Source of the DNA: Akkermansiaceae bacterium
GTDB lineage: Bacteria > Verrucomicrobiota > Verrucomicrobiia > Verrucomicrobiales > Akkermansiaceae
NCBI GenBank assembly: GCA_028293225.1
Contig: JAQGPE010000484.1
Location: 1-11,225, forward strand
Direction of reading: 5' to 3'
Length of the DNA: 11,225 bases
Shown here: piece by piece, positions 420-11,225 of the stretch
How the letters are laid out: each line of letters starts with the position of its first letter
How positions within the stretch are numbered: position 1 is the first letter of the stretch
Notes under the pieces: generated by a model
Databases searched by the model: none
Told to the model about the DNA's origin: nothing
The model's input: the letters and a program-made list of their open reading frames with translations, nothing else
Position numbers and translations under genes: made by a program

Positions 420-560
420 TACGTCATCAATCAGAGGGACGCGAAGAACGTGCAGGACCACCTGAACGTGAGCATGGCGCAAGTTTATCTCGCGAAACAC
501 CGCGTCGGCTCCGTTCTTAAGAAAGAACTCTCCCGACTCGACGAGGATGCCGACGAATAA
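420..560 (+). pseudogene. Detached region 4 (helix-turn-helix) of the same sigma factor
   Basis: Immediately after the TAA at 417-419 the same frame continues for 46 codons to TAA 558-560. The translation begins YVINQRDAKNVQDHL and continues NVSMAQVYLAKHRVGSVLKKEL. This is the sigma-70 region 4.2 pattern (xxVxxxLxVSxxxVYxxKHRV), which is preserved rather than scrambled. No frameshift separates the halves, so one nonsense change is sufficient, for example a TTA or other sense codon becoming TAA. The segment has no convincing start or ribosome-binding site of its own. Its end overlaps the kinase start (ATG 547) by 14 nt, so ribosomes reaching 558-560 would normally feed the kinase start. Possible explanations are a recent pseudogene, a sequencing or assembly error, or stop-codon readthrough; the sequence alone cannot separate them. 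Confidence 0.7.
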
Positions 561-3261
561 CCCGCGACCGGAACCGGTGATCCCGGATCACGAGGTCCTG
601 CGGAAAATCGGCGGCGGGTCCTATGGGGAAGTGTGGCTGGCGCGTGGCGTCACGGGCGCCCTGAGAGCGGTGAAAGTCGTTTACCGCGAGGACTTTGACG
701 ACGTCAGGGGCTTTGAGCGGGAATTCGAGGGGATCCTCAAGTTCGAGCCGATCTCCCGCGACCACCCGGGGCTGGTCAATATCCTGCACGTGGGCCGCAG
801 CCCGGATTTCTCGTTCTATTACTACGTGATGGAGCTGGGTGACGACGTCACCTCCGGCCGGGAGATCAACCCGATCGAGTACGAGGCGCGGACCCTGAGC
901 AGCGACACGAAGCGGACGCCGGGCCGGCGGCTGGCGACGGAGCACTGCATCGACTGCGGCCTGCGCCTGGCGGAGGCGCTGCGGCATCTGCACGACGGCG
1001 GGCTGGCGCATCGTGACGTGAAGCCGTCGAACGTGATTTTCGTCAACGGCAAGGCCAAGCTCGCTGATATCGGGCTGGTGGCGACCCGCGGGCAGCGGAC
1101 CTTTGTCGGCACGGAGGGCTTCGTCCCGCCGGAAGGGCCCGGCTCGGCTCAGGCCGACGTCTACAGCCTCGGAAAAGTCCTGTATGAGATCGCCACCGGC
1201 AAGGACCGGCTGGATTTCCCGGAACTGCCGGATGAACTGCCGGGCGGGGCCGAGCGCAAGCGCTGGCTGGCGCTGAACCAGATCATCTGCGACATCTGCG
1301 AGCCGCAGCTTTCAAAGCGGACCATCGCCTCGGCCGGGGAGCTGGCCGATTCGTTGCGGCGCCTGCAGCAGGGCAAGCGGCGGAAGCGCCGACGGCGTCC
1401 GGTCGGGGCTTTCTTCGCCACGCTGCTGGTCGGCGGGGTGCTCGCGCTGGGCGGCTGGCTGGCTCTGAAGGGGAGCGGCCTGGGTCAGCAGATCACCAGG
1501 AGTAATCTCGGCAAGTATTTCGAGGAATCTCCGCCTCCGCCGGCCCCTCCCAAGCCGCGGGCCCAGGTCCTGGTGAAGATTTCCAGCCAGCCCTCGGGCG
1601 CCCATGTCTTCGACAAGATCAAAGGCAAGCAACTCGAGGATACCCCCTGCGAAATCGTGGGCCCTGAAGGGGATCCGTTGTCGCTCTATCTGCAGTTGGA
1701 AGGATACAACGACCAGCCCGTCGAGGATGTGATCAAGGACAACGGCGAGCCCATGCCCCTGCTGGTGACGTTGGTGAAATTCACCCCGCCGGTGCCCGCC
1801 CAGCCGTGGGTCTTCAAGCAGGCCTACCGGCCCTTTGGCGGAGTGCCGGATCCGAATGCCACCGATCCCCGCTCGCCGCCGGCCTTTTATCACGAAACCG
1901 AGGGGCCGGTCGAAAAGGCTCCGTGGGAGGAATACCTGAAGGCGAAATCCCGTCCGCCGGAGGTTTCCGAATTCCTCGACGTGGATGCCGTGGGCGGAGG
2001 CCCCAAGCAAGGCATCGTGCTGACCAGCGAGAGCGAGGCGAACCTCTATTGTCAGTGGCTGATGGCCGAGGGGTTAAAGACCGGCTTCCTCAAGGAACAG
2101 CATGAGATCACGCCGGTGATGCTGACGGATTTCAATGATCCGGGCCTGAGCGAGCGAGCGAGGAAAGACGGCCTGCATCCCTTCAAGTGCCAGGTTCGCC
2201 TCGTCACCTACGCCACTCTGGTGATTTCGACCATCCCGGGCGGAGCCGAAGTCTACCTGCGGCAGCAGTCCGAGGGCTTCCAGGCTTCCAAGGGAGTCAC
2301 GGCGGAGGGCGCTCCTCTGGCGATTCCCCAGATCCGCCCGGGCGAAACCTCGATCTCGGTGATCCGGGAGGGCTATAAGCCCTTGAACGAAACCTTCACC
2401 CTGAAGCCGGGGGAAACCAAAACCCTGAGCCGCAAGCTGGTGCCGAACCAGAGCGTGGTGATGGACAAGCCCTGGGAAAACAGCCTGGGGATGAAATTCG
2501 TACCCGTGGCCAAGGATCTGATGGCCTGCGTCTGGGAGACCCGGGTGAAGGACTACATCCACTATGTGAGCTCGGCCAATCTGGCCCCTCCGCCGCAGCC
2601 GAACTTCCAACAGGATCCGAATCATCCGATCGTGTTCGTTTCCCGCGATGACGCGGTCGCCTTCTGCACCTGGCTGACCAAAACGGAGCGGGACCAGGAG
2701 AGGATCACGGAGACCCACGAGTACCGGCTGCCGACCGACTACGAGTGGAGCTCCCTGGCCGGCCTGGAAGGGGAGGACCCCTACTCGACTCCGGCCCGCC
2801 GCGACAACCAGAGCCGCGCTCCCCTGCCTCCGCTGGTGGGGCCCCAGTACTTCTGGTATGCCGGGTGGCCGCCGCCCGATAATTTCGCCAATCTGGCGGA
2901 CGTCAGCGCCGGCAATGACAATCTGTCTTCCGGCCGGACCATCCCCGGGTATCACGACCCCTTCAAGAACACCGCCCCGGTCGGCAGTTTCCCGCCGGAA
3001 AAGCTGCACGGCCTCTATGATCTCTGCGGAAACGTGAACGAGTGGGTGAGCGAGAACTACAGCGCCACCAACCCGGTCCCGTCCGGCGTGCTGCGCGGCG
3101 GCGGCTGGAACACCTATCAGGCGAACAACCTCTACATCGGCGCCCGCACGGTCCAGCCGCCGACCTTCCGCGATGATGCCTCCGGCTTTCGCGTGATGCT
3201 TGCCAAGATGGCGCAGCCGGACGAAAAGACCTCCGACTCCACAGTTCCCGACCATGGTTGA
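547..3261 (+). CDS. Transmembrane Ser/Thr protein kinase with two PEGA domains and SUMF1/FGE-like sensor region
   Basis: This 904-residue protein has a cytoplasmic kinase domain at about 14-275. Visible motifs are the glycine loop IGGGSYGEVW (21-30), the ATP-anchoring Lys43 in AVKVV, HRDVKPSN (155-162, catalytic Asp157), DIG instead of DFG (174-176) with the metal-binding Asp kept, a GTEGFVPPE activation segment (188-196) and the F-helix Asp204. A basic stretch (277-284) precedes one hydrophobic transmembrane helix (about 287-307), then a proline-rich linker (329-338). Outside the membrane are a PEGA-like domain (340-410), a degenerate SUMF1-like segment (about 459-545), a second PEGA (556-633) and a fuller SUMF1/FGE-like domain (636-887) with NSLGMKFVPV, YRLPTDYEW, LYDLCGNVNEWV and VLRGGGW. 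The cysteine pair needed for formylglycine formation is absent, so a binding or sensing role is more likely than catalysis. The start overlaps the sigma-factor end and GAGG directly precedes the ATG, which suggests translational coupling. The natural ligand and phosphorylation targets are unknown. Confidence 0.93.
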   Translation: MPTNNPRPEPVIPDHEVLRKIGGGSYGEVWLARGVTGALRAVKVVYREDFDDVRGFEREFEGILKFEPISRDHPGLVNILHVGRSPDFSFYYYVMELGDDVTSGREINPIEYEARTLSSDTKRTPGRRLATEHCIDCGLRLAEALRHLHDGGLAHRDVKPSNVIFVNGKAKLADIGLVATRGQRTFVGTEGFVPPEGPGSAQADVYSLGKVLYEIATGKDRLDFPELPDELPGGAERKRWLALNQIICDICEPQLSKRTIASAGELADSLRRLQQGKRRKRRRRPVGAFFATLLVGGVLALGGWLALKGSGLGQQITRSNLGKYFEESPPPPAPPKPRAQVLVKISSQPSGAHVFDKIKGKQLEDTPCEIVGPEGDPLSLYLQLEGYNDQPVEDVIKDNGEPMPLLVTLVKFTPPVPAQPWVFKQAYRPFGGVPDPNATDPRSPPAFYHETEGPVEKAPWEEYLKAKSRPPEVSEFLDVDAVGGGPKQGIVLTSESEANLYCQWLMAEGLKTGFLKEQHEITPVMLTDFNDPGLSERARKDGLHPFKCQVRLVTYATLVISTIPGGAEVYLRQQSEGFQASKGVTAEGAPLAIPQIRPGETSISVIREGYKPLNETFTLKPGETKTLSRKLVPNQSVVMDKPWENSLGMKFVPVAKDLMACVWETRVKDYIHYVSSANLAPPPQPNFQQDPNHPIVFVSRDDAVAFCTWLTKTERDQERITETHEYRLPTDYEWSSLAGLEGEDPYSTPARRDNQSRAPLPPLVGPQYFWYAGWPPPDNFANLADVSAGNDNLSSGRTIPGYHDPFKNTAPVGSFPPEKLHGLYDLCGNVNEWVSENYSATNPVPSGVLRGGGWNTYQANNLYIGARTVQPPTFRDDASGFRVMLAKMAQPDEKTSDSTVPDHG

Positions 3262-4498: not shown

Positions 4499-6484
4499 TT
4501 ACTTCGCTCCTTCGAAGGCCTGCAGATCGGTCATGAAGCCGAAGGTCTCGGCATAGCCGTACTGCTGCGGGTAGTGATCGACGAAGGTCGCGCGCACATA
4601 GCGGGCGGGCGTTTTCGCGAAGCTCACGTCGGCCTTGGCTTCGGTGTTGGCGGCGAACTCGTGGCTGCCCACGTCCTTGAAGCTCTTGCCGTCTTCGCTC
4701 ACGGAAATCGCGATCGTCTTGGTGGAGCCGAACCCCGGCACGCCGAAGCGGACGGTCTGAAGCGGGTGGCTGCCGCCCAGGTCAACGGTGACGTTTTTCG
4801 GGAAGCGGGGATCCTCGCCGGTGGCGTAGCAGGTGCCGTTGCCGCCCGCCCAGCTGCCGTCGGTCAGGCCGCTGTCCCAGTCGTGGGTGTTGCGATTGCT
4901 GGAGGTGAAGGGGCGTTTGAGGGCGACGTTTTTGCCGAGGTCGGGATCTTCCGGCCAGTGGGTGTTGAAGGCTCCCGCGGGCAGGCCCTGGTTGTTGCGC
5001 AGGTTCGGCTCGGCGACCTGCGACCAGGCGAAGCGCGCGGACTTCGGCTGGGGAATGCCGGGGTTCTTGAGGATGACGTCGCCACCAGAAATGCCGGCGA
5101 GCGCGGGTTTGAAGACGCCGTCGGCGCCGGCGATTTCGAAGCTGTCCGGAGCCTTGTCGTCGCGGGTGGACAGACCGGGCTCGCTATACTTGAACTTGAT
5201 TTTCACCGAGTCGCCGGAGATTTCGTAGCCGTTGTAAAGAGGCCCCGAGGCGACCACGCCGGTCTTGCCATAGGTCTCGGCGAGCGCCCAGCGGGCCAGG
5301 CGGTAGCCGACGTCGGACTTATCGTCGGGGTGGATGTTGGCGACATTGCCGATGTCGTTGGTGACGGCCATCCCGGTGTGGGGGATTTTCAGCGCCTCCT
5401 GCTGGGCGACCCACAGCTCCGGCACCTGGTCGCCCTTGTTCTGGCCGTAGTTATATGGAGCGATCTGGACGTAGAGGAACGGACCGGCGGGGACGCCGAA
5501 CTGCCTGCGCCAGCCGTTGATCAGCACCTGCATTTCCTGGGTGTAGAGCATGCCCTCACCGACGTTCGACTCGCCCTGATACCAGAGGAAGCCGCGCAGG
5601 CCGTAGGGGACCAGCGGGTGGATCATCGCCTGGTAGAGGCCGATGTTGCCCGCTCCGGTGCCGACCGGGAGAATCTGGGGAATCGGCGGCTGCTCCGGGA
5701 CCTGCTTGCCGTCTTTCAACGCGGCATCGGCCAGGTTGGTCCAGTCGCGGGTCGCGATGACGTGCTTCTTAAGAGCGTCGGTGAAGGCGGGCGTGCCGGG
5801 GGTGTGGGCGGCGCGGTTGTTTTTCATGTCCTCCAGCTCGGGGACGCCTTCGAAGCCTTCGTCGGCGAACCAGGGCTCGATCCGCGAGCCGCCCCAGGAG
5901 GCGTGGATGATGCCGACCGGGACCTTCAGTTCCTCGGTCAGGCGGCGGCCGAAGAAATAGCCGACGGCCGAAAAGCGCTGGCAGGTCTCCGGGGTGGCTG
6001 CTTCCCAGGCGCCGCGCAGGTCATCCTGGCGGTAGGCGGAGGTATTGCGCTGGACCTGGAACAGGCGCAGCAGGGGCACGGGGCCGGATTTCGCGATCTC
6101 CTGGTCGACCGTGCGGGTCTGGGCGACGGCGAACTCCATGTTCGACTGGCCGCTGGCCAGCCAGACTTCGCCGATCAGCACATCTTTGATGGTCACCGGG
6201 GCGGCGCCGGCTTCGCTCACTTCCAGGTTCTGGCCCTGGGCATTGGCCGGCATCGCTTCCAGATCGACGCGCCAGCGGCCGTCCGCCGCCGCGGTGGCGG
6301 TCTTCTGCTTGCCGGCGAATTTGACGGTCACTTCCTTGCCCGGCGCGGCCCAGCCCCAGACCGGGACCGGCCGGTCGCGCTGGAGGACTTCGCCGTCGGT
6401 GAAAACCTTTGGCAGGCGAATTTCAGCGTGCGCGCCCGTGAGGAGGGCGGTCGTGAGCAGGATGAAGCGCAGATTGGAGAGCAT
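4499..6484 (-). CDS. Secreted SASA-family carbohydrate O-acetylesterase (sialate O-acetylesterase-like) with discoidin-like C-terminal domain
   Basis: The product is 661 residues with a signal peptide (MLSNLRFILLTTALLTGAHA, cleavage near 20), hence exported. The N-terminal beta region begins IRLPKVFTDGEVLQRDRPVPVWGWA, typical of this family. The SGNH-like esterase core shows GEVWLASGQSNMEF with nucleophile Ser114, HASWGGSRIEPW (194-205), GFLWYQGESN (298-307), and a late DIGNVANIHPDDKSDVG block with candidate catalytic His385. Residues about 515-657 form an F5/8 type C (discoidin)-like beta domain (NVALKRPFTSSNRNTHDWDSGLTDG, split here as NVALKRPFTSSN and HDWDSGLTDG; VTVDLGG; ISVSEDGKSF; ARYVRATF) expected to bind glycans. 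The family removes O-acetyl groups from sialic acids, but many environmental members act on plant or algal polysaccharides, so the substrate is not settled. It is divergent from cysJ across a 165-nt gap and is followed by a lipoprotein gene. Confidence 0.88.
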   Translation of the reverse strand: MLSNLRFILLTTALLTGAHAEIRLPKVFTDGEVLQRDRPVPVWGWAAPGKEVTVKFAGKQKTATAAADGRWRVDLEAMPANAQGQNLEVSEAGAAPVTIKDVLIGEVWLASGQSNMEFAVAQTRTVDQEIAKSGPVPLLRLFQVQRNTSAYRQDDLRGAWEAATPETCQRFSAVGYFFGRRLTEELKVPVGIIHASWGGSRIEPWFADEGFEGVPELEDMKNNRAAHTPGTPAFTDALKKHVIATRDWTNLADAALKDGKQVPEQPPIPQILPVGTGAGNIGLYQAMIHPLVPYGLRGFLWYQGESNVGEGMLYTQEMQVLINGWRRQFGVPAGPFLYVQIAPYNYGQNKGDQVPELWVAQQEALKIPHTGMAVTNDIGNVANIHPDDKSDVGYRLARWALAETYGKTGVVASGPLYNGYEISGDSVKIKFKYSEPGLSTRDDKAPDSFEIAGADGVFKPALAGISGGDVILKNPGIPQPKSARFAWSQVAEPNLRNNQGLPAGAFNTHWPEDPDLGKNVALKRPFTSSNRNTHDWDSGLTDGSWAGGNGTCYATGEDPRFPKNVTVDLGGSHPLQTVRFGVPGFGSTKTIAISVSEDGKSFKDVGSHEFAANTEAKADVSFAKTPARYVRATFVDHYPQQYGYAETFGFMTDLQAFEGAK

Positions 6485-6588
6485 CGGCGGTTAGATACAC
6501 CCAAACGGGGTTGAATCTACCAATACCGTGGCATTTCGACATCGCGGGATTGCGGTGACACCACATCGGCGCAATTTCCCTTGCGTGG

Positions 6589-6617
6589 TCGGCGGTCGCC
6601 ATGGATGCTGCCGCCGA
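6589..6617 (+). promoter_or_regulatory. GC-rich hairpin upstream of cysJ
   Basis: TCGGCGG (6589-6595) pairs perfectly with CCGCCGA (6611-6617) around a 15-nt loop. It lies 13 nt before the palindrome that overlaps the cysJ ribosome-binding region. No T-run follows, so a terminator is unlikely. It may be part of a 5' untranslated structure if transcription starts further upstream, or it may be chance in GC-rich DNA. Confidence 0.3.
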
Positions 6618-6629
6618 AACCATACAAAA

Positions 6630-6646
6630 CTGAGTAACTAACTAAG
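6630..6646 (+). promoter_or_regulatory. Candidate operator: imperfect palindrome overlapping the cysJ ribosome-binding region
   Basis: CTGAGTAACTAACTAAG reads as CTnAGT-N5-ACTnAG: five of six half-site positions are mirror-symmetric, and one further inner pair matches. It sits in a locally AT-rich patch just before the cysJ ATG (6650) and includes the AAGG that serves as Shine-Dalgarno. A protein bound here would be well placed to block transcription of the sulfite reductase genes. An Rrf2-type (CymR-like) or other sulfur regulator is a possible binder, but no regulator gene is in the window. Confidence 0.4.
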
Positions 6647-6649
6647 GTA

Positions 6650-8422
6650 ATGCTACCGGAGCACGCTCCCTTTTCTCCCGACCAGCGCCGCGCGATCGAA
6701 ATCGCACTGGCAGGCCTCGATGCAACCCAGCGCTTCTGGCTGGGCGGATTTCTCTCCGCAGGCTCCACCGTGGCTGCTGCTCCTGCCAAGGCCGCCGCCC
6801 CTTCCAAACTCACGATTCTGTATGGCACGGAGTCCGGCAACTCCGAGAAACTGGCCGATCTCTCCGCGAAGGAGGCCAAGAAAAAGGGCTTCCAGCCCGC
6901 GGTGAAGAACATGGCCGAGATCGCTCCGGAGGAACTCGCCAAGGTCGAGAACCTGCTGGTGATCGTCAGCACCTGGGGCGACGGCGAACCGCCGGAAACC
7001 GCCACGCCTTTCTATAAGCAGTTCATGGGCGCCTCCGTGCCGCTGTCGAAGCTGCGCTATACCGTTTGCGCACTGGGCGACACGGCTTATGAGAAGTTTT
7101 GCCAGACCGGCAAGGACATCGACGCCAAGCTGGAACAGCTCGGCGGTACCCGGGTCGCGCCGCGCCAGGACTGCGACGTCGAGTATGAGGAGCCCTACCA
7201 GGCATGGTTGAAGAGCGCCCTGCAGGCCTTCGAACCGGCCGCTGGGGCCGCCTCGATCGAGGTCGTTTCCGCGCCCGCGCCCGCCGCCCCGGCGGTCGAG
7301 TATGGCAAGAAGAACGCCTTTCCCGGCGAACTGCTGGAAAAGGTCATTCTGAACGGCAAGGGCACGGTCAAGGAGACCTGGCACTATGAAATTTCCTTGG
7401 AAGGCTCCGGCCTGAACTACGAGCCGGGCGACGCGCTGGCCGTGATCCCGGTCAACGCGCCGGATCTGGTCGAGGGCATCCTGAAGGCTTCGCGCCTGTC
7501 CGGGGCCGAGACCGTGGAAGTGAAAGGCGTGGGTCCGAAGATCCTGGCCGACGCGCTTCGCGAGGACCTCGACATCACCGCGCTGTCCCGCTCGGTCCTG
7601 ACCAAGCTCCAGGCGCTGTCGGGTTCGCCGAAGCTGGCGGCCCTGCTGGCTGACGATGCCAAGGACCAGTTGAAGGATTACCTCTGGGGTCGCTGGATCA
7701 CCGACGCGATCGAGGATTTCGCGCCGGAGGGCCTGGCCGCCGCCGGTTTCGCCACGCTGTTCCGCAAGCTGCCGCCGCGCCTTTACTCGATCGCTTCCAG
7801 CCCGCTGGCCCACCCCGGCGAAGTGCACCTGACCATCGCGTCGGTCCGCTACCAGGCCCACGGCCGGACCCGCAAGGGCGTCGCCTCGACCTACCTGGCC
7901 GACCTGGTGAAAAAGGGCGATACGGTCCCGGTCTACACGCACCAGAACAAGAACTTCCGCCTGCCTGTCTCCGGTGACACGCCGGTGATCATGGTCGGCC
8001 CCGGCACCGGCGTCGCGCCGTTCCGCTCCTTCGTGGAGCACCGCGGCACGCTCGGCCACGCGGGCAAGAACTGGCTGTTCTTCGGCGATCAGCACTACAC
8101 CTACGATTTCCTGTATCAACTGGAGTGGCAGGAGCACCTGGCCAACGGAGCGCTGGGCAAGCTCGATGTCGCCTTCTCCCGTGACCAGCCGGAAAAGCTC
8201 TACGTCCAGCACCGCATGCTGGCGCAGGCGAAAGAGCTCTACGCATGGCTGCAGGAAGGCGCCCACTTTTACGTCTGCGGCGATGCCTCGCGCATGGCTC
8301 ACGACGTCCACGAGGCGCTGCTCACCGTGGTCGAGCAGCAGTCCGGCCAATCCCGCGAAGCCGCGGAAGCCTACGTCGACGAACTCAAGAAATCGAAACG
8401 CTATCAGCGCGACGTCTATTGA
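6650..8422 (+). CDS. cysJ: Assimilatory NADPH-sulfite reductase flavoprotein (alpha) subunit
   Basis: This 590-residue protein is close to the family length (about 600) and carries electrons from NADPH through FAD and FMN to the CysI hemoprotein, which reduces sulfite to sulfide in the cytoplasm. The N-terminal segment [20 protein letters not shown] is typical of CysJ. The flavodoxin-like FMN domain (54-190) shows [25 protein letters not shown] and [20 protein letters not shown]. An Ala/Pro linker (198-216) leads to the FAD domain (222-440) with RLYSIASS (377-384) and [10 protein letters not shown] (410-419). The NADP(H) domain (445-590) shows [32 protein letters not shown] and the characteristic C-terminal end RYQRDVY. 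The start at 6650 is supported by a close AAGG and by the family N-terminus beginning a few residues later. It lies 76 nt before cysI on the same strand, an expected operon pair. Its expression may be controlled by the palindrome over its start region. Confidence 0.96.
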
Positions 8423-8498
8423 GAATCCATTTTCCCGCTTTAGTTTCCCCATCCCCGAATCCGAATTCCCGCAGGTTAGAGGCCCGCGGTTCCCCGTT

Positions 8499-10220
8499 AT
8501 GAGTGACAAGAAGCTCGCTGCCAACGAAGGCATCAAGACCCGATCGAACTACCTCCGCGGCACCATCGCGGAAGGTCTCGCGGACCTGTCGACAGGTTCG
8601 CTGTCGGAAGACGACCAGCAGCTCATCAAGTTCCACGGCTCCTACCAGCAGGACGACCGCGACCTGCGGCCGGACCGCCGCAAGCACCGTCTGGAAAAGG
8701 CCTACTCCTTCATGATCCGCATCCGCGTGCCGGGCGGGGTGGCGACGCCCCACCAGTGGCTGGAGACGGACCGCATCGCCGAACAGTTCGCGAACGGCAC
8801 CATCAAGCTGACCACCCGCCAGGCCTTCCAGCTGCACGGGATCATCAAGACCAATCTCAAGCGCACGATCCAGGAGATCAACCAGACCGCCATGGATACC
8901 ATCGCGGCCTGCGGCGATGTGAACCGCAACGTGATGTGCAATCCGAACCCGCACCTTTCCTCCGTGCACGCGGAGGTGCTGAAGGCGGCGCAGGAGATTT
9001 CCGACCACCTCACCCCGCAGACCAAGGCCTATCACGAGATCTGGCTGGATGGCGAGAAGCTGGAGTCGAGCGAGGCGGAGCAGGAGCCGATCTATGGCAA
9101 AACTTACCTGCCGCGGAAATTCAAGATCACCATCGCCGTGCCGCCGAGCAACGACGTGGACATCTTCGCCAACTGCCTTTCGTTCATCGCGATCGTCGAT
9201 CACCACGGCAAGCTGGTGGGCTACAACGTCGCCGTAGGCGGCGGCATGGGCTCGACTCACGGCAATGACGCGACCTACCCGCGGCTGGCCGACGTGATCG
9301 GCTTCTGCACGCCGGAGCAGATCGTGGATGTCTCGGAGAAGGTGGTGCTGGTGCAACGCGACTTCGGCGACCGCGCCGACCGCAAGCATTCCCGTTTCAA
9401 GTACACCGTCGACGACCACGGTCCGGACTGGATCCTGGCCAAGCTCAACGAGTACCTCGGCTACGCTCTGGAGCCGGCGAGCCCCTATGTTTTCACGACC
9501 AATGGCGACCGCTTCTGCTGGGTCGAGGACGAGGTCGGCAACTACCACTACACTCTCTTCGTCGAGGGTGGCCGCGTCCTGGACACGGAGGCCTACCCGA
9601 TGCGCACCGGCTTGCGCGAGATCGCCAAGATCCACGACGGCGACTTCCGCCTGACCGCCAACCAGAACGTGATCATCGCCAACGTTTCCTCGAAGAAGCG
9701 CGCGGAGATCGAGGCGCTGCTGGAAAAGTACGGCATGCATCGTAGCCACGAGCGCAGCGCCCTGCGGCTGTCGTCGATCGCCTGCGTGTCGCTGCCGACC
9801 TGCGGCCTGGCGCTGGCTGAGGCCGAGCGCTACCTGCCGGACGTGGTCGAAAAGCTGGAGGAAACACTGGAGAACGTCGGCCTGCGCCACGACTCCATCA
9901 CCATCCGCATGACCGGCTGCCCGAACGGTTGCGGCCGCCCCTTCATCTCGGAGATCGGCTTCGTCGGCCGCGGTCCGGACCGCTACAATGTCTACCTGGG
10001 CGGCGGCCACGCCGGCCAGCGCCTGAGCAAGCTGTATCGTCAGGACGTCGATGCCGCGGACATCCAGCCGCTGCTGTCACCGATCCTGGAGCGCTACGCC
10101 AAGGAGCGCGAACAGGGCGAACACTTCGGCGATTTCGTCATTCGCGCCGGTTACGTCGTCGCGACCGTGCAGGGCAAGGACTTCCACCAGAACATCAAAG
10201 AAGAGGCGCTCAAGAACTGA
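8499..10220 (+). CDS. cysI: Assimilatory sulfite reductase hemoprotein (beta) subunit
   Basis: This 573-residue protein matches the usual CysI length (about 570). It holds the siroheme coupled to a 4Fe-4S cluster and performs the six-electron reduction of sulfite to sulfide with electrons from CysJ. Family landmarks are [10 protein letters not shown] (17-26), [17 protein letters not shown] (44-60), [12 protein letters not shown] (104-115), DVNRNVMC (140-147), [15 protein letters not shown] (202-216) and [12 protein letters not shown] (540-551). The cluster ligands are in place: CX5C at Cys429/Cys435 and GCPNGCGR with Cys474/Cys478. Arg107, Arg143, Lys207 and Lys209 lie in the blocks that hold the siroheme-site basic residues. 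The start at 8499 (MSDKK) fits the family; the frame is open further upstream but there it only overlaps cysJ out of frame. No strong Shine-Dalgarno precedes the ATG (an AGAGG lies 16 nt upstream), so cotranslation with cysJ may matter. Confidence 0.96.
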
Positions 10221-10386
10221 GGTCTCGCATGCCAGCCGTGAAATGAAACGGATCCATCCAGAGGAGAATCGAATGTCGTGTCGCGAACGGGACGGGTGCT
10301 GTCGGGGCCCCGTTTAGAAGCGCGCCTGTCTTCGTTTTTCGCATCGATCGATTCCTCACCTCCTCATTCATTTCACCGCTTTTCCT
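10221..10386 (+). promoter_or_regulatory. cysI-cysH intergenic leader with possible attenuator
   Basis: This 166-nt spacer contains, in order, a strong Shine-Dalgarno (GAGGAG, 10261-10266), the cysteine-rich 14-codon ORF, overlapping hairpins, a T5 run (10335-10339) and a long pyrimidine-rich stretch ending at the cysH ATG. AACGGG (10286-10291) pairs with CCCGTT (10309-10314), and CGCG (10282-10285) can extend the stem with CGCG (10321-10324) across a 6-nt bulge. The tandem copy GACGGG (10291-10296) can compete for the same CCCGTT arm. A weaker stem GAAG/CTTC (10317-10320/10330-10333) lies just before the T-run. The layout resembles a peptide-controlled attenuator, but the terminator part is weak. 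Confidence 0.4.
10273..10317 (+). CDS. Cysteine-rich leader peptide upstream of cysH (candidate)
   Basis: The ORF encodes 14 residues, MSCRERDGCCRGPV, then TAG. GAGGAG ends 6 nt before the ATG, the best Shine-Dalgarno in the window and far better than those of the sulfur enzyme genes around it. Three of 14 codons are cysteine (TGT 10279, then tandem TGC-TGT 10297-10302). An in-frame ATG at 10243 would give 24 residues but has no Shine-Dalgarno. It ends 69 nt before cysH, whose product starts sulfite formation for cysteine synthesis. Short Cys-codon leader ORFs that sense cysteine by ribosome stalling are known from mycobacteria; here the same role is inferred from position and composition. 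The peptide itself may have no function. Chance occurrence is possible because the ORF is so short. Confidence 0.5.
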   Translation: MSCRERDGCCRGPV

Positions 10387-11118
10387 ATGTCCACTCTCAT
10401 TCACTCCCACGCCACGGCAGCCGATCAGCTGTCTGCGGAACTCTCCCGGCTGAAGGCCGGGGAACGCCTGAAGCTGCTCCACGAGCGCTATGGCAAGCGG
10501 CTGGTCGCCTCGACCAGTTTCGGCCTGCAAGCCGCGGTCATGCTGCAGCTCATCGCGGAGAACGCGCCGGAGATCCCGGTCATCTTCATCGATACCGGCT
10601 ACCATTTCCCTGAGACCTACCGCTACGCCGCGGAGCTGGAGAAAAGCCTCGGCATCGACCTGCGGGTCTATCAGCCGACGCACTCCGCCGCCCGCATCGA
10701 GGCGCTGTGGGGCAAGCTCTGGGAGCAGGGCCGGGAGGGCGCCGACCAGTATGGCATCCTCACCAAGATCGAGCCGATGGACCGCGCGCTCAAGGACCTC
10801 AATGCGGACGTCTGGATCAGCGGCGTGCGCCGCAGCCAGTCCAGCTCCCGCATCGAGCGGCCCTTCGCCGAGCAGCAGAAGAAGACGCTGAAGGTCTACC
10901 CGATCCTCGACTGGGCCGACGCCCAGGTGTCCGTCTACATGAACCAGAACCACCTGCCGCCGCACCCGCTGGCGGAGCAGGGCTATGTCACCATGGGCGA
11001 CTGGCACAGCACCCGCCCGGCGGTCGATGGTCTGTCCGCGGAGGACACCCGCTTCAATGGCGAGAAGTACGAGTGCGGCCTGCACCTCGACTCCGGCAAT
11101 GCGGATTTCCAGATCTGA
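10387..11118 (+). CDS. cysH: Phosphoadenosine phosphosulfate (PAPS) reductase, thioredoxin-dependent type
   Basis: This 243-residue protein has nearly the length of the E. coli enzyme (244). It reduces PAPS to sulfite plus adenosine 3',5'-bisphosphate in the cytoplasm using thioredoxin or glutaredoxin. Visible features are the nucleotide-binding STSFGLQAAVMLQLI (42-56), FIDTGYHFPETY (67-78), WISGVRRSQSSSR (143-155), and the C-terminal catalytic ECGLH with Cys230. This is the only cysteine in the protein. The CC...CxxC set that holds the 4Fe-4S cluster in APS reductases is missing, which argues for PAPS rather than APS as substrate and implies an APS kinase elsewhere in the genome. The ATG is preceded by a pyrimidine-rich stretch with no Shine-Dalgarno, an unusual context that fits control by the leader just upstream. 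Sulfite made here is the substrate of the CysJI enzyme encoded upstream. Confidence 0.94.
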   Translation: MSTLIHSHATAADQLSAELSRLKAGERLKLLHERYGKRLVASTSFGLQAAVMLQLIAENAPEIPVIFIDTGYHFPETYRYAAELEKSLGIDLRVYQPTHSAARIEALWGKLWEQGREGADQYGILTKIEPMDRALKDLNADVWISGVRRSQSSSRIERPFAEQQKKTLKVYPILDWADAQVSVYMNQNHLPPHPLAEQGYVTMGDWHSTRPAVDGLSAEDTRFNGEKYECGLHLDSGNADFQI

Positions 11119-11198
11119 AGAAATCGGCCACGAAAATAGATCCCGCGGCTTCATTTATCCTGTTAGACCTACTCTCGTAATCCCAACCGTAAATTCCC

Positions 11199-11225
11199 AT
11201 GCCTATCGCATCATCCATGGTTGCC
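11199..11225 (+). CDS. Possible start of a further gene, cut by the window edge
   Basis: An ATG at 11199 opens a frame reading MPIASSMVA to the window end. It lies 80 nt after cysH on the same strand in a locally AT-rich spacer (11119-11198) that could hold a promoter. No Shine-Dalgarno is visible and an alternative in-frame ATG lies at 11217. Nine codons are too few to name a product. A further sulfur-assimilation gene would fit the context, but this is only a guess. Confidence 0.3.

Follow-up and report, generated by a model that had tools for sequence, protein, structure and literature searches.

A candidate mid-operon cysteine leader-peptide attenuator between cysI and cysH in Akkermansiaceae

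Attenuators of the trp and his operons, as described in PMC1183508, place a short open reading frame (ORF) with codons for the product of the pathway, together with a T-tailed hairpin, before a biosynthetic gene. For cysteine, leader peptides that precede cys operons were predicted in Mycobacterium and in a small number of further Actinobacteria; in that description, these are short ORFs with runs of Cys codons near the stop codon, placed before sulfur or cysteine genes and without conserved terminator hairpins (PMC1262725). The ilvB leaders of Actinobacteria that are treated in the same paper carry branched-chain codons and lie before ilvB operons, and codon replacement in the S. coelicolor ilvB leader was reported there to be without effect (PMC1262725). 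Mycobacterial polycysteine ORFs are reported to attenuate in response to cysteine (Canestrari 2020, as cited in PMC9031893, PMC9094748, and PMC13236596), and the citing accounts portray them as leaderless ORFs with contiguous Cys codons that act by translation attenuation on a downstream operonic gene. A survey from 2010 stated that leader-peptide systems had, to its authors' knowledge, been shown only in Proteobacteria and Actinobacteria (ermC aside), and itself added a leader-peptide system in bacilli (PMC2965389). In the open-licence papers that we searched, mostly by title and abstract, nothing relevant was found on leader-peptide attenuation in Verrucomicrobiota (the leader treated in one paper that came up concerns antibiotic resistance), and searches for cysteine leaders, for attenuation, and for Luteolibacter likewise returned no case from this phylum.

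Here, we describe a locus of an Akkermansiaceae bacterium, contained in an 11,225-nt stretch of DNA (hereafter, the window), in which a short ORF with three Cys codons precedes cysH. In our reading, to which we give a probability of roughly 0.4, cysH is controlled in response to cysteine by an attenuator of the leader-peptide type that sits mid-operon, in the cysI-cysH spacer, and of which the window holds a diverged or separately arisen version. The attenuator is fairly founded in six related genomes, hereafter referred to as "carriers," whose shared element is probably a cysteine-linked leader. The ORF of the window is a fair candidate for such a leader.

The window's operon and its Cys-codon ORF

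The window contains a cysJIH operon with all three genes on the plus strand. The first, cysJ (6650..8422), encodes the flavoprotein subunit of sulfite reductase, with the Pfam domains Flavodoxin_1, FAD_binding_1, and NAD_binding_1, and scores 650.9 bits against the TIGR01931 cysJ model, which is under the cut-off of 668.15. It is followed by cysI (8499..10220), which encodes the hemoprotein subunit (TIGR02041 CysI, 808.1 bits, above cut-off), and by cysH (10387..11118), the (P)APS reductase gene that is presumed to be regulated (Pfam PAPS_reduct; NF002537, 253.2 bits, above cut-off). Names attached to the closest CysH records include Luteolibacter, Haloferula, and Akkermansiaceae, which points to a Luteolibacter-like member of the Verrucomicrobiota. 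Between cysI and cysH lies a spacer of 166 nt (10221..10386, plus strand), compared with a median of 20 nt over 95 distinct spacers, which remained from 110 cysI-cysH loci after removal of 12 duplicates and three unusable loci (L081, L101, and L104). No sigma-70-like promoter site, the one type that was sought, was found in 6300-11225, and an Rfam scan of the window gave no matches up to an E value of 1 and no curated cis-regulatory family. Upstream of the operon, the region 5' of cysJ (6570-6649) displays two blocks that relatives keep at fixed spacing (CCTTGCG, followed by an AATGCT-like block), as well as AAAC..TACAAA and AACTAAGGTAATG; it is probably the promoter and leader of the cysJIH operon. 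The window is also home to a large protein (547-3261) with protein kinase, PEGA, and FGE-sulfatase (formylglycine-generating-like) domains.

The initial annotation of this DNA had called attention to a 14-codon ORF with three Cys codons in the cysI-cysH spacer, and such an ORF is indeed present at 10273..10317 on the plus strand. It encodes MSCRERDGCCRGPV followed by a stop codon (ATG TCG TGT CGC GAA CGG GAC GGG TGC TGT CGG GGC CCC GTT TAG), with Cys at codons 3, 9, and 10 (10279-10281, 10297-10299, and 10300-10302). An alternative in-frame start, ATG 10243, would extend it to 24 codons, and the frame is open upstream to 10051, within cysI. A Shine-Dalgarno-like (SD-like) GAGGAG was confirmed at 10261..10266 (plus strand), 6 nt from the ATG, as was the statement that cysH itself has no such site: The longest match to the SD consensus measures 5 nt for the ORF but 2 nt for cysH, and 3 nt each for cysI and cysJ. 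The weight that had been put on this site was too large, because long ORFs of the window's genome show no enrichment of SD-like sites ahead of them (17 of 87, compared with 13 of 87 for a control position 40 nt off, in 179 kb), which weakens any argument built on it; the ORF of the carriers, moreover, has no evident SD.

The abundance of Cys codons is uncommon by chance. When the spacer was dinucleotide-shuffled 5000 times, 0.14% of the shuffles held an ATG ORF of 8-30 codons that included three or more Cys codons, compared with 1.0% of 7010 same-genome segments of 166 nt (179 kb); these shares fell to 0.02% and 0.09%, respectively, when an SD match of at least 5 nt was added, although these figures overstate the surprise because the ORF criteria were chosen after the ORF was seen. 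ATG ORFs of such length occur in 30-41% of random segments. In an NCBIfam scan, neither the 88-codon frame nor the window peptide, which was entered twice over to attain 20 residues, had a match. A search of the window's genome with the pattern CAGCGGTGTCG was uninformative (232 matches with at most one mismatch, versus 135 for the reversed pattern).

A leader ORF in six relatives and its likeness to the window

We examined a genus sample of 18 genomes (the window's genome and 17 others) and a family sample of 260 genomes. At the same spot as in the window, a leader ORF is found in 6 of the 17 other genus genomes (L002, L004, L005, L007, L009, and L012), at least one of which is a named strain, Haloferula sp. 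BvORR071. Their cysI-cysH spacers, 122-133 nt long, contain one conserved element, which begins with the ATG of the ORF, 7 nt past the cysI stop codon. The encoded peptides are MNRECETGYQRCRP in both L002 and L005, MNRECETGCQRCRP in L004, MNTRECETDYQRCRS in L007, MNHRECETGYQRCRP in L009, and MTREQETGYQRCRP in L012. The remaining 11 genus genomes have spacers shorter than 60 nt with neither the leader element nor a two-Cys ORF, and that they do without it counts against the attenuator. Of the 95 distinct spacers, only that of the window and those of five of the six carriers contain an ATG ORF with at least two Cys codons; ORFs of this kind that start with GTG or TTG occur in two further spacers.

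Five carriers have two or three Cys codons, and one has a single one. All six share the later Cys, which is codon 12 or, in ORFs with an inserted codon, codon 13. The earlier one (codon 5 or 6) is kept in five, with both TGT and TGC in use, and is absent in L012. In L004, a third Cys stands at a position that is Tyr in the others, a difference of two base changes. The residues QRCR are invariant in the six, and Pro precedes the stop codon in five, with L007 ending in CRS-stop (the window's ORF ends in GPV-stop). Tandem Cys codons, which had been taken for the key feature of the system, are a property of the window, which has one adjacent pair (CC), and of none of the six carriers.

The ORF of the carriers bears the mark of coding selection. 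Its pN/pS is 0.28, a value that was reached or undercut in 31 of 2000 column permutations, and 0.15 without the most divergent row, L012 (10 of 2000 permutations as low), in an alignment that leaves out the additional codon of L007 and L009; in the two alternative frames, the trend is reversed. Both indels within the ORF amount to one whole codon (2 of 2), and indels 3' of the stop codon come in other lengths as well. A check on this method is offered by a frame before cysJ in four non-carriers (L031, L032, L034, and L037), which has two Cys codons at matching places. As a second cysteine leader, this frame was rejected: pN (0.181) and pS (0.178) are about equal, L034 has an internal stop codon, and the kept bases form two promoter-like blocks at fixed spacing. 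The regions before cysD (17 loci) and cysE likewise lacked a conserved Cys ORF, which counts against the attenuator, the cysE search being a weak test on 17 of 22 matches that begin inside the protein, with five weaker matches left out, including the sole match of the window's genome.

A covariance model built from the six carriers found one site per carrier, before cysH, and matched 6 of the 18 genus genomes and, with stricter filters, 6 of the 260 family genomes. Among the candidates scored, namely, 150 (genus) and 16 (family) first-look candidates per genome, numbers at which weak second copies could escape, no element was found elsewhere than before cysH in either sample. Each of the six carriers also has another small conserved motif, CGCG-N5-CGCGGTTT, whose end is a short way 5' of the cysH start; its CGGTTT is, by eye, complementary to an AAACCG within the leader ORF of four of them.

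The window's spacer resembles those of the six carriers (global p 0.0015 and local p 0.0065, 2000 shuffles), while two unrelated spacers of the window, used as negative controls, gave p 0.51 and 0.73. Broken down by part, the similarity had p 0.08 from the spacer start to the stop codon, p 0.02 from the stop codon to the T-run (a comparison in which the rows of L005 and L007 ended short of their T-run), p 0.16 for the whole tail past the stop codon, and p 0.33 past the T-run. The ORF alone displayed no DNA similarity to the carriers (p 0.29), and its peptide gave p 0.31 versus residue-shuffled peptides and p 0.013 versus nucleotide-shuffled codons. In the best alignment, with L009, the window's ATG stands opposite out-of-frame bases of codons 5-6, and the stop codons coincide. 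Run on the window with filters off, the covariance model gave no match at this spot and two chance-level matches elsewhere. A CysI-CysH tree of 26 rows leaves the branching order of the window, carriers, and non-carriers at their fork unresolved. Common descent of the window's spacer with those of the carriers is likely, given the similarity over the whole spacer, and we infer that the window's version diverged or arose separately. The expectation that relatives would share a short Cys-codon ORF under coding constraint was borne out in 6 of 17 relatives, with pN/pS of 0.28 in the six, and failed for the ORF of the window itself, which is not conserved in its exact form and whose peptide is not matched (p 0.31).

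Hairpins and ribosome position

In the carriers, the second half of the leader ORF pairs with a sequence that ends in a T-rich run, which is broken in two of the six (L002 and L007). Termination at this hairpin is plausible. In stretches of 70-76 nt, which were trimmed after the fold was seen, the stability z scores were -4.0 (L002), -2.1 (L004), -5.1 (L005), -3.4 (L007), -1.5 (L009), and -0.65 (L012), and with flanks included (94-101 nt), they were -2.3, -1.3, -3.2, -1.25, -0.6, and -0.6 in the same order; values below -2 were thus obtained for four of six carriers in the trimmed stretches and for two of six with flanks. Standard pairs occupy 93% of the cells of the carriers' hairpin, a level of pairing that shuffled controls reach as well. 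Covarying stems, which had been proposed as a check, did not appear: Over the six carriers, none of the 25 pairs changed on both sides, and there was no compensatory base-pair change.

To model the position of the ribosome, the bases under it were blocked, and the pairing of the 3' foot of the hairpin was computed. In free RNA, foot pairing amounted to 0.65-0.92 over the six carriers (0.70-0.92 in the five with the early Cys). With a ribosome stalled with its A site at the early Cys, it was 0.11-0.14 in all five carriers that have this codon, and with the ribosome at the stop codon, it was 0.60-0.91 over the six (0.67-0.91 in the five). Two other footprints gave 0.09-0.48 at the early Cys and 0.52-0.91 at the stop codon; the smaller footprint raised the early-Cys values to 0.11-0.48. 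A ribosome stalled at the later Cys has a much smaller opening effect on the foot (0.34-0.84), and stalls at several codons near the early Cys also open it, so that the masking result is not Cys-specific. In this model, the geometry of the carriers is compatible with cysteine control and no proof of it. For the window, foot pairing was 0.40, 0.48, and 0.62 for stalls at Cys3, Cys9, and Cys10, respectively, versus 0.77 when free, and it ranged from 0.03 to 0.83 with the ribosome at the stop codon, depending on footprint.

For the window, the initial annotation had drawn a hairpin of AACGGG (10286-10291) with CCCGTT (10309-10314), a competing arm GACGGG (10291-10296), and a T5 run thereafter. 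All three arms are present as placed, and so is the T5 (10335..10339, plus strand). The drawn hairpin (10286..10314, plus strand), however, proved to be a minor alternative, the weakest of three folds in a 62-nt stretch: Its constrained energy is -13.5 kcal/mol, compared with -20.0 kcal/mol for the competing ACGGG arm and -25.0 kcal/mol for a long hairpin (10283..10342, plus strand). The T5 marks the foot of the latter and is separated from the drawn hairpin by 20 nt. This long hairpin shares the architecture of that of the carriers, with its 5' arm within the leader ORF and its foot at the T-run. Which fold is favored varies with the stretch (62 and 180 nt favor the long hairpin, 103 and 120 nt the competing arm), and the stability is ordinary, with z of -0.94 in 62 nt (38 of 200 shuffles as low), +0.46 in 103 nt, and -1.76 in 180 nt. 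In the 180-nt fold, GAGGAG pairs long-range with a sequence 5' of cysH. A simple terminator scan, applied to the spacer of the window and to that of L005, was negative for both.

Other spacers of the family contain structures of their own. By eye, the cysI-cysH spacers of L020 and L096, and L029, have seemingly unrelated hairpins without an ATG two-Cys ORF, and such hairpins in other family members may reflect repeated evolution of an intra-operon hairpin at this place. The spacers of L074 and L082 are long and, again by eye, resemble inserted repeat-type sequence.

Proposed mechanism, rival readings, and known systems

In the proposed attenuator, a ribosome would enter the ORF of 14-15 codons directly past cysI, and the second half of this ORF would form the 5' arm of a terminator-like hairpin, the 3' arm of which has a T-rich run at its end. 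With ample cysteine, the ribosome would reach the stop codon in the loop region and the hairpin foot could close, upon which transcription into cysH would end or drop. When Cys-tRNA is short, the ribosome would stall at the early Cys codon and cover the 5' foot, so that the hairpin could not close and cysH would be made. We infer all three elements of this scheme, i.e., translation of the leader, termination, and the cysteine response, from sequence. What survives of the cysteine attenuator that was originally suggested before cysH is its type, which the ORF of the carriers, the constraint on it, the hairpin, and the spacer similarity sustain; the hairpin as drawn, the weight on the SD, and the emphasis on tandem Cys codons are abandoned.

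The window's ORF could instead be a chance ORF in a long, fast-evolving spacer, with a leader that is real in the carriers and was lost or never present here, which we regard as unlikely, if a serious contender. It would explain why the covariance model misses the window, why neither the peptide (p 0.31) nor the DNA of the ORF alone (p 0.29) resembles the carriers, and why the hairpin is ordinary (z -0.94); it also fits with the 30-41% of random segments that contain ATG ORFs this long and with the absence of a two-Cys ORF from 7 of the 14 spacers of at least 60 nt (L020, L074, L082, L091, L096, L100, and L110). Yet, three Cys codons are rare (0.14-1.0%) and located where the carriers keep Cys codons, and the similarity over the whole spacer (p 0.0015), with two control spacers negative, argues against mere chance.

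A different objection concerns cysteine itself. The hairpin might be an ordinary intra-operon terminator, or a stabilizer of an mRNA end, that sets the cysJI:cysH ratio, with the ORF as a translation relay from cysI to cysH and cysteine not sensed. The start of the carriers' ORF 7 nt past the cysI stop codon, with no evident SD, would suit such a relay, as would the lack of an SD at the window's cysH and the hairpins that L020 and L096 seem, by eye, to carry in spacers that lack a two-Cys ORF; PMC4833913, moreover, puts forward reinitiation at leader genes as a hypothesis. But a relay needs no conserved Cys codons, whereas Cys is kept through synonymous changes, and the leader stop codon lies 69-78 nt before cysH, far past the peak at 10-11 bp that PMC4833913 gives for Actinobacteria. 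We rate a relay as a poor prospect. Least probable of all, the end of the leader (Q-R-C-R-P-stop) might arrest the ribosome as a nascent peptide, in response to some molecule and not to a shortage of Cys-tRNA. TnaC also ends in Pro-stop, and QRCR in six of six carriers, along with Pro before the stop codon in five of six, would be in line with arrest; the endings GPV-stop in the window and CRS-stop in L007 are not, and the invariant bases also build the 5' arm of the hairpin, which could explain their conservation without arrest.

Extending the attenuator reading to the phylum, we tentatively propose, as a possibility short of an even bet, that Verrucomicrobiota own a cysteine-sensing attenuator in the middle of cysJIH, in which the ORF is the terminator arm and is fed by ribosomes leaving cysI, and which would time CysH after sulfite reductase. 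If true, sulfite reductase would be made first, and the sulfite-producing CysH would be switched on only at cysteine shortage; a possible reason for the mid-operon placement is that toxic sulfite would be kept low. The element would also turn over fast, and the window would hold a rebuilt version with other Cys positions and its own ribosome-binding site.

Compared with the trp and his attenuators, which it resembles in its short ORF with codons for the pathway product and its T-tailed hairpin before a biosynthetic gene, the element described here lies inside an operon, where it would control only cysH and what lies downstream; its ORF is itself the 5' arm of the putative terminator, and no separate antiterminator stem was identified. 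With the actinobacterial cysteine leaders, it has in common a short Cys-codon ORF before sulfur or cysteine genes, but the carriers combine spaced single Cys codons with a hairpin, and they belong to a different phylum. The proposed cysteine-responsive attenuation of a downstream operonic gene is akin to that of the mycobacterial polycysteine ORFs, although here cysI precedes the ORF within an operon, on one strand with it, which, together with the negative search for sigma-70-like sites in 6300-11225, speaks against a leaderless placement at a 5' end. A cysteine attenuator in mid-operon position would add both a phylum and a placement to the leader-peptide systems.
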